DNA from: a virus
Length of the DNA: 28,713 nt
Direction: 5' to 3' (one strand)
Virus record (IMG/VR): IMGVR_UViG_3300013104_000067
Coordinates: 1 to 28,713 of that record
The notes under the pieces are model-generated. The model was not told the origin of the DNA. It saw only the letters and a list, made by a program, of their open reading frames with translations, and searched no databases. A program made the translations under genes and the position numbers. Positions 6,163 through 7,709 of the stretch are shown here, piece after piece. Numbering within the stretch: the first letter of the stretch is position 1; every line of letters starts with the position of its first letter.

Positions 6163-6660
6163 ATGAACCCAATCGCCACCGCCATCGAGAAGTCGGGAGC
6201 CGGTCAAGCCGGAATCGCTCGCCTGTTGGGGGTATCCCCGCAGGCGGTAAACCAGTGGGTAAGCGGCATCAGGCCTGTTCCGTCTCGCCACGTGCTCGCC
6301 ATTGAAGCTGCAAGTGGGATTTCCCGCCATGAACTTCTCCCTGAGGTGTTCGGGCCAGCTCCAGGGGCCGTCGCTCCGCTCAGTTCTGGAACATCCAGTT
6401 CCCAGGCTCCCTCGGTCCTTGTTGACAGTCGCATGAGCAAGCGCGCGCTGCGCGCCAAGCTGGGCCTGAGCACCGACAAGCAGTTGGCCAAGGTTCTGAA
6501 GTTGCCGTTGGAGCAGGTGAGCGGTTGGGCGGATGACGAGATGGTCCCGGCCTTGCCGCAGGTAATGAGGCTGCTTGGACACCCCGTGCAGCTGGAGCCG
6601 GCCAAGCCGGCCAACGACGACCCCGATGCAGACCGCATCGCGCCAATTGAGGTGGCCTGA
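6163..6660 (+). CDS. Cro/YdaS-like regulator with a C-terminal extension
   Basis: A 165-aa DNA-binding protein. Residues 1-65 match the YdaS/Cro-like HTH pattern (IEKSGAGQAGIARLLGVSPQAVNQWVSG, then ISRHELLPEVFG, the usual end of these short proteins). After a Ser/Pro linker, residues about 88-150 add a second helical unit (SKRALRAKLGLSTDKQLAKVLKL..VSGWA), which looks like another HTH-like repeat. Typical relatives are 70-90 aa, so this is a long form. It is the first gene from PR and divergent from the repressor, the classic cro position. No Shine-Dalgarno sequence is visible before the ATG. Confidence 0.85.
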   Translation: MNPIATAIEKSGAGQAGIARLLGVSPQAVNQWVSGIRPVPSRHVLAIEAASGISRHELLPEVFGPAPGAVAPLSSGTSSSQAPSVLVDSRMSKRALRAKLGLSTDKQLAKVLKLPLEQVSGWADDEMVPALPQVMRLLGHPVQLEPAKPANDDPDADRIAPIEVA

Positions 6661-6661
6661 T

Positions 6662-6826
6662 ATGCGATGGCTTCGCGATGCGCTGCGCAGATGGCTGGTG
6701 CCTGAGATTGGTGAGATCCGTTCGACGCAAGAACGCCTGTTGGCTGATGAGCGAAAGAGGGCGATCCGAGAGCACCTGCGGACCGCCCCGAACGACGCGC
6801 TCAGCGAGCGGAGAACTCTGCGATGA
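6662..6826 (+). CDS. Short basic phage protein
   Basis: A 54-aa, Arg-rich helical protein (MRWLRDALRRWLVPEIGEI, then a charged helix). The ATG at 6662 overlaps the end of the Cro-like gene region, one base after its stop, so translation could be coupled. Its 3' end overlaps the leftward gene 6801-7022 tail to tail by 26 bp. No function is assigned. Confidence 0.5.
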   Translation: MRWLRDALRRWLVPEIGEIRSTQERLLADERKRAIREHLRTAPNDALSERRTLR

Positions 6827-7022
6827 GGCGCTTCATTTCCAGCATCTCCTCGAGCGCGCTGCGCAGTGCGGCCGGCATCGTTAGCACGGCAACCGACTCC
6901 CCATTGATCAGGACTTCCTCGACGTCCTCCGGGAATGTCGCTCGGGCTGTGTTGAGTCGGATATCCCTCGCGCGCTGGCTCAACAGCAACGCCTGGATGT
7001 TCTCCAGCAGCTCTTCCTTCAT
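6801..7022 (-). CDS. Small leftward protein with hairpin-covered start
   Basis: A 73-aa acidic, mostly helical protein (MKEELLENIQALLLSQRARDIRL..., a short beta segment EEVLINGESVAVL, and a C-terminal helix ALEEMLEMKRLIAEF). The ATG at 7022 has an unusually strong AAGGAGG site 5 nt upstream, which supports this start and the gene. It points against the flow of the rightward early operon, so PR transcription would be antisense to it. The ribosome binding site and start lie in one arm of a perfect 16-bp inverted repeat. I recognise no family; a small regulator or antitoxin-like protein is possible. Confidence 0.7.
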   Translation of the reverse strand: MKEELLENIQALLLSQRARDIRLNTARATFPEDVEEVLINGESVAVLTMPAALRSALEEMLEMKRLIAEFSAR

Positions 7023-7081
7023 GTCGCCCTCCTTGCGGGCTGTGTTGTTGGCACATCCAGCGTAGCGCAAGGAGGGCGACA
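7022..7081. repeat. 16-bp perfect inverted repeat over a ribosome binding site
   Basis: TGTCGCCCTCCTTGCG (7022-7037) and CGCAAGGAGGGCGACA (7066-7081) are exact reverse complements, 28 bp apart. On the minus-strand mRNA the 5' arm is an anti-Shine-Dalgarno and the 3' arm holds AAGGAGG and the A and T of the start codon of the 73-aa gene. Folded, it would hide the ribosome binding site. It could instead, or also, be a protein-binding dyad. Confidence 0.85.
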
Positions 7082-7178
7082 CCCGTCGTCCGTGAGTTGT
7101 TGATCTCCATGGCGCCCATCGTGCGCCGCCCGGCCCCAACCCGAAACCCTGAAAAGCCGTCCCTCCCAAGGTGACCCG

Positions 7179-7709
7179 ATGACCTGCCGTACTTCCTCGC
7201 TCAACTGGCTCGACAACCTCTACAACTCCGTGCGCGAGACGCCGGGAGGTGTGGAGGCTGCAGCTGCGTACCTGGCCCAGCGCCGGGGCAAGTCGATGCA
7301 TCCCGAGACGCTGCGCGCCAAGTTGCGCGGTCTGGAGGGTGAGTCGGTGACGCTCCAGATCGCCGAGTTGCTGACCGAGTGGATGCAGGAACAGGCGGGC
7401 GGTGGTGAGCGTGCGCTGGGTTGGCTGCAGTCGTTGGTAGCGCGTTTCGGCATGGCCGCCGACGTGGTGCCGCCGGCGCCGGAGGGCGGCTGGTCCGACG
7501 AGATCGGCGCCATCCAGATGAAGCTGCTGGAGATCACCAGTCGGGTCGGGAAGCTGTCCGGTACTGCGGTGGAGGCCATCGCCGACTCGACCATCACGAA
7601 CGCAGAGGCCGAGCAGATGATTGCCGAGATCCGCGCGCTGCGCACGATGGCCAATCGCTTGGAGCGCAACGTCGCGCGGGCTGCGGCGAAGGGGAGGGTG
7701 GCGCGATGA
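7179..7709 (+). CDS. CII/YmfL-family phage regulator
   Basis: A 176-aa protein matching the phage regulatory CII/YmfL pattern. The N terminus LNWLDNLYNSVRETPGGVEAAAAYLA is followed by the conserved MHPETLRAKLRGLEGESVTLQIAELLTEWMQ, an HTH that binds DNA. The rest is helical (EIRALRTMANRLERNVARAA). Family members are transcriptional regulators between the immunity genes and replication genes. The ATG at 7179 has AAGGTG upstream, and the stop overlaps the next start (ATGA). In lambda terms it fits the cII position and may activate lysogenic promoters. Confidence 0.8.
   Translation: MTCRTSSLNWLDNLYNSVRETPGGVEAAAAYLAQRRGKSMHPETLRAKLRGLEGESVTLQIAELLTEWMQEQAGGGERALGWLQSLVARFGMAADVVPPAPEGGWSDEIGAIQMKLLEITSRVGKLSGTAVEAIADSTITNAEAEQMIAEIRALRTMANRLERNVARAAAKGRVAR

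Follow-up and report, generated by a model that had tools for sequence, protein, structure and literature searches.

The DNA analysed (the "window") comprised 28,713 nucleotides, positions 1 to 28,713 of IMG/VR virus record IMGVR_UViG_3300013104_000067, taken as one strand, 5' to 3'. The features considered here are given below in window coordinates (+, rightward; -, leftward; SD, Shine-Dalgarno sequence). An S24-type CI repressor is encoded farther left of the 73-aa gene.

6163-6660, +: Cro/YdaS-like regulator, the left neighbour
6662-6826, +: 54-aa ORF that starts beside the cro stop, overlaps the 3' end of the leftward gene head-on and resembles the RWNPRLWLRDWL-type partner described below
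6801-7022, -: 73-aa leftward gene (ATG at 7022-7020), a member of a 10-sequence family
7022-7037, -: proximal arm of the inverted repeat, TGTCGCCCTCCTTGCG; it holds the SD AAGGAGG (7034-7028), touches the ATG of the 73-aa gene and is near-invariant across leaders
7038-7065: inter-arm region, with conserved GCTG (7039-7042) and CAGC (7058-7061), a possible inner stem
7059-7064, -: TACGCT, candidate -10 element (TAnGCT), from which RNA would start near 7052
7066-7081, -: distal arm, CGCAAGGAGGGCGACA, an anti-SD in leftward RNA that reads through from upstream
7143-7154: GAAACCCTGAAA direct-repeat element, candidate site for a leftward establishment promoter
7179-7709, +: CII-like activator (Phage_CP76, phrog_101), the right neighbour

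The first-pass annotation had described a perfect 16-bp inverted repeat at the start of the leftward gene. The arms were indeed complementary at 16 of 16 positions, across a gap of 28 nt, and the repeat at 7022-7081 is the longest perfect one in the window among those with arms within 150 bp. Its improbability by chance, also claimed, was borne out by simulation: in 60 first-order Markov sequences of the window's length, with a loop of up to 60 allowed, the best perfect repeat measured 10-13 bp or was lacking, versus 16 bp in the real sequence. On the gene strand, the distal arm is exactly complementary to CGCAAGGAGGGCGACA and pairs with the SD-bearing proximal arm, as expected of the anti-SD that had been proposed. 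The repeat does not have the form of an intrinsic terminator (a G+C stem followed by a T run), and none was found near this copy.

The repeat is part of a portable expression leader, and it does not belong to one gene. In Xanthomonadaceae prophages and genomes, a leader of about 58 bp, ending at the ATG, was located directly 5' of small ORFs; there are 149 such modules, with 105 distinct leaders. The modules were counted after the removal of duplicates and had the ORF at a fixed place; the loci overlap and are mutually related, and these counts are accordingly non-independent observations. The limits of the leader coincide with those of the inverted repeat, and the start codon lies at a fixed offset.

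Several search routes contributed to this set. The 73-aa protein as sole query returned nothing in three collections. The cII gene as query gave 77 viral relatives; in most of these, cro runs directly into the cII leader with no module between them, and in about 14 the same leader stands at the same place ahead of differing leftward ORFs. A pattern scan for the distal half yielded 33 stretches, one for both halves 95 viral stretches (a core of 14-20 nt was allowed, and a few chance matches were dropped where no ORF followed) and one for the proximal half alone at least 119. True matches in genome_contigs came from Stenotrophomonas, Luteimonas and Xanthomonas. Of 395 genomes of the family, 16 contain a 19-base proximal block and none its backward control, and the two-arm pattern was found in 7 of 398 genomes in an order-wide scan. 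Relatives reached solely via the protein also carry the leader, including L303, a chromosomal relative of the window's protein family with a leader variant. One module (L137), from a record titled Bacillus subtilis SK7B5, is a typical Stenotrophomonas-phage module, and its contig is probably contamination. In the cultured Stenotrophomonas phage S1 and Bordetella phage PHB09, which have a related cII, no leftward gene is annotated in the corresponding gap. The leader is real, conserved and apparently undescribed: DNA searches of phages and plasmids returned no copy, Rfam 15 gave no match above the gathering score, and it was not found in the literature searched.

The genes behind the leader are diverse. 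At a BLAST E-value of 1e-3, the module ORFs fell into 31 clusters; one consists of a 19-residue fragment lying at the end of a contig, which leaves about 30 families. The 73-aa protein had been said to lack a recognised family, and Pfam, PHROG, NCBIfam and PADLOC gave no match for it, though it belongs with unnamed homologues to a family of ten members, of which those aligned were 36-49% identical to it. Its AlphaFold model has a beta hairpin between two helices (pLDDT 94.9). That of the largest ORF family contains three helices (pLDDT 92.0), a different fold, and fold searches with these two models gave no convincing structural match. A few ORF representatives matched poorly characterised phage families, and none of 27 representatives matched a defence-system model in the library used. 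The suggestion that the dyad is an operator for autoregulation by the 73-aa protein did not survive this survey. Self-repression by the encoded protein is very unlikely, because one leader precedes about 30 unrelated families and different folds, and an operator of that kind would be expected to serve one family.

On the gene strand, the leader reads GTCGCCCTCCTTGCG-n-TAnGCTG-(variable)-GCCCGCAAGGAGGGCGAC-ATG. The proximal arm and the adjoining GCCC are near-invariant, and the distal arm varies more. Pairing is nevertheless conserved among relatives: in leaders that had been found via cII or solely by the proximal arm, and hence unselected on the distal arm, 13 of 15 pairs were kept, versus 3.9 in a control placed 15-30 nt farther on. 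Covariation, which had been named as a check, was represented by two double compensatory changes (L044 and L210) and was otherwise almost absent; it is hardly testable because the proximal arm is near-invariant, presumably as the ribosome site. The variable core measures 17 nt in 126 of the 149 modules, 23 nt in 21, 20 nt in one and 14 nt in one. These lengths all differ by multiples of three, and a coding role was considered on that account. It was set aside: one frame on the gene strand stays open throughout (105 of 105 leaders), but the changes do not fall mainly on third positions.

The distal half contains a second constant element. A bulged TA is shared without exception by the 46 leaders that were selected solely on the proximal arm (the window included); it is unpaired in the predicted hairpin, and the bases adjoining it vary freely. 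In the -10 element TAnnnT, TA occupies key positions. The sequence TAnGCT suggests such an element, belonging to a promoter that would start RNA inside the loop. No -35 hexamer or consensus sigma-70 promoter was found in the leader.

The consequences of such a start for the SD were explored by folding predictions. Over 143 leaders, the mean unpaired probability of the SD was 0.13 in read-through RNA, 0.66 in loop-started RNA and 0.48 when the distal arm was shuffled; the corresponding values for the window were 0.00, 0.69 and 0.46. Values below 0.2 were obtained for 112 of the 143 leaders in read-through RNA and for 3 of 143 in loop-started RNA. The gene-strand fold of the window was predicted at -60.3 kcal/mol (z = -5.5 versus shuffled sequence). 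In L134 and L227, much of the leftward-RNA pairing is lost.

The upstream region offers a possible source of read-through RNA. A direct repeat, GAAACCnTGAAA, occurs upstream of cII in 69 of the 77 relatives, and it is a candidate CII site or leftward promoter region that may feed such RNA. Also kept upstream of cII in relatives is an imperfect palindrome, GGCGCCCATCGTGCGCC (7110-7126 in the window), a possible operator.

The model best supported by this anatomy, and resting on predicted structures, is the silencing of read-through messages. The leader would carry its own promoter, with the TAnGCT -10 element in the distal half. The normal mRNA would start inside the loop and would lack the distal arm, leaving the SD open. 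RNA reading in from upstream would have both arms and would fold, with the SD buried and the gene untranslated; in the window, such RNA might come from a CII-activated leftward promoter beside cII. The leader would thereby insulate a swapped-in gene from its neighbours' transcription, like the leader of T4 gene e. This model is put forward tentatively, at slightly less than an even chance. Two points stand against it: no -35 box is visible, and pairing is slightly better kept in the opposite-strand RNA. The lost pairing in L134 and L227 and the near absence of compensatory change weigh against it as well. The translational switch proposed in the first-pass annotation is thus plausible, the SD being predicted as paired in the long RNA and open in the loop-started RNA, and the part of that proposal concerning dyad autoregulation is unsupported. 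It had also been held that a transcript start inside the loop would count against a switch. The invariant TAnGCT suggests just such a start, but the present model does not count it as a refutation: it would be the mechanism itself, since the distal arm would be present in read-through RNA only.

Another reading, judged unlikely, is that the dyad is an operator: some other regulator (phage CII or CI, or a host factor) would occupy its inverted half-sites and govern the leftward promoter, much as Aca proteins do at anti-CRISPR promoters. The leader has features appropriate to this, namely two inverted sites of 15 bp, nearly identical and with a spacing that is mostly constant (the 17-nt core in 126 of 149 modules, where 14-20 nt was allowed). 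The right-hand neighbours are also mostly CII-like, with phrog_101-type genes beside 64 modules and phrog_4834-type genes beside 14, and the 186-type CII, a member of the same Pfam family, turns on a leftward establishment promoter. That CII primes the expression of CI has been described (PMC7708051). However, 21 modules have a spacing longer by 6 nt, the window ORF is not followed by an Aca-like gene, and modules also occur beside a small membrane protein gene (phrog_16049), beside a spanin-like gene and on a chromosome, with no single neighbouring regulator common to them. In the modules that adjoin the spanin-like lysis gene (L065, L168, L182 and L198), the leader does not lie between cro and cII.

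Less likely again is a role for the hairpin in the rightward (PR) RNA instead of the leftward mRNA: it might, for example, protect that RNA, take part in its processing or mask the ribosome site of a gene read rightward. The strand comparison is its principal evidence. Standard pairs made up 96.7% in the rightward RNA versus 91.5% in the leftward RNA (38-62% in slid controls), G.U mismatches in the 105 distinct leaders occupied 120 cells in the rightward RNA versus 15 in the leftward, and RNAalifold gave -18.9 versus -8.0, with the long stem recovered on the rightward strand only. This wobble preference is confounded: it stems mostly from A-to-G change in the distal arm, which the bias of a G+C-rich genome also yields, and A-to-C changes, which disrupt the pairs in both RNAs, are frequent. 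In type C modules (L222, L227, L230, L237, L243, L246 and L261), a rightward phrog_16049 gene has the distal arm as its SD, and the phrog_16049 profile begins at the ATG of that ORF; in the window, no start codon lies at SD distance past the distal arm, and the absence of a terminator there also speaks against a rightward role.

The type C arrangement bears also on a third and rather improbable explanation, in which the arms are two outward-facing ribosome-binding sites, originally for divergent genes, with the symmetry a by-product and the leader kept as a homology block for exchange. In those modules, a gene with proper SD spacing stands at each arm, and the sequences indicate that the two arms can serve two divergent genes; a conserved block next to a variable gene would also favour swapping by homologous recombination. 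Against this, pairing extends past the SD core on both sides and into the inner GCTG/CAGC stem, and the distal arm is kept even though most modules lack a rightward start there. Finally, a single-strand hairpin for cassette movement, like integron attC or REP-type elements, would account for a bulged hairpin adjoining swapped ORFs but is very improbable, as exact copies number at most one per genome in the 16 positive genomes, no recombinase is seen alongside and the element is the gene's start region and not a cassette end.

Beyond the leader, the leftward ORF in many modules runs head-on into a rightward ORF, the two overlapping at their 3' ends, and this layout of the window is common in its relatives. 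A strict RWNPRLWLRDWL-type motif or a window-like variant was present in the partner in 56 of 140 modules versus 0 of 168 control segments, a count in which the 54-aa ORF of the window fits only the variant, itself composed with the window in view. In the window (6662-6826), L007, L222, L065 and others, the rightward gene has a conserved RWNPRLWLRDWL start and a variable end. It is possible, if on balance doubtful, that the whole is a dedicated swap locus of Xanthomonadaceae prophages, in which a constant hairpin leader and an often constant gene start (RWNPRLWLRDWL) enclose a highly variable pair of small genes, head-on and overlapping. Newcomers would be exchanged between these ends, expressed at once from the loop promoter and insulated from read-through.

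If such a swap locus exists, its contents would constitute a catalogue of candidate host-takeover, exclusion or anti-defence proteins. The short, constant leader makes many unnamed small prophage proteins findable by sequence alone. Should the silencing model hold, the leader would be a natural insulated expression cassette and a case of temperate phages accepting genes without losing control of lysis and lysogeny.

Four known systems were compared with the module. Like acr-aca operons, it places diverse small proteins behind a conserved start region with an inverted repeat. In contrast to them, no common Aca gene was seen, the repeat overlaps the ribosome site and no defence-family match was obtained in the library used; in the window, the leftward ORF converges on a rightward ORF and has no co-directional HTH gene that could be a co-operonic aca. 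Phage morons are similar in that a small accessory ORF, missing from most close relatives, runs against its neighbours' direction with a self-contained start region. They differ in that the conserved leader is here reused with many ORF families, often with a head-on partner, and has no terminator near the window copy. As with lambda PRE and 186 pE, a leftward start region lies between cro and cII and points to cI, a position that fits most modules; unlike those promoters, the leader occurs at sites away from cII too, it is absent from most close relatives that share the same cII, and no CII site was recognised inside it.

The fourth system is T4 gene e. Its long early transcripts form a structure that results in approximately 100-fold less lysozyme, while those begun at promoters just 5' of the ribosome site are without the 5' strand and translate well (PMC3014915). 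The module differs in that one leader serves about 30 unrelated genes of temperate phages, in having no T4 late promoter and in that its promoter and regulation are candidates. The likeness to gene e (and to soc, 49 and I-TevI; PMC3014915) is that a predicted hairpin, with the SD paired in the long transcript by prediction, buries the ribosome site in the longer RNA; the candidate promoter inside that hairpin, suggested by the invariant TAnGCT but with no consensus promoter found, would give a proper transcript that misses the 5' arm.
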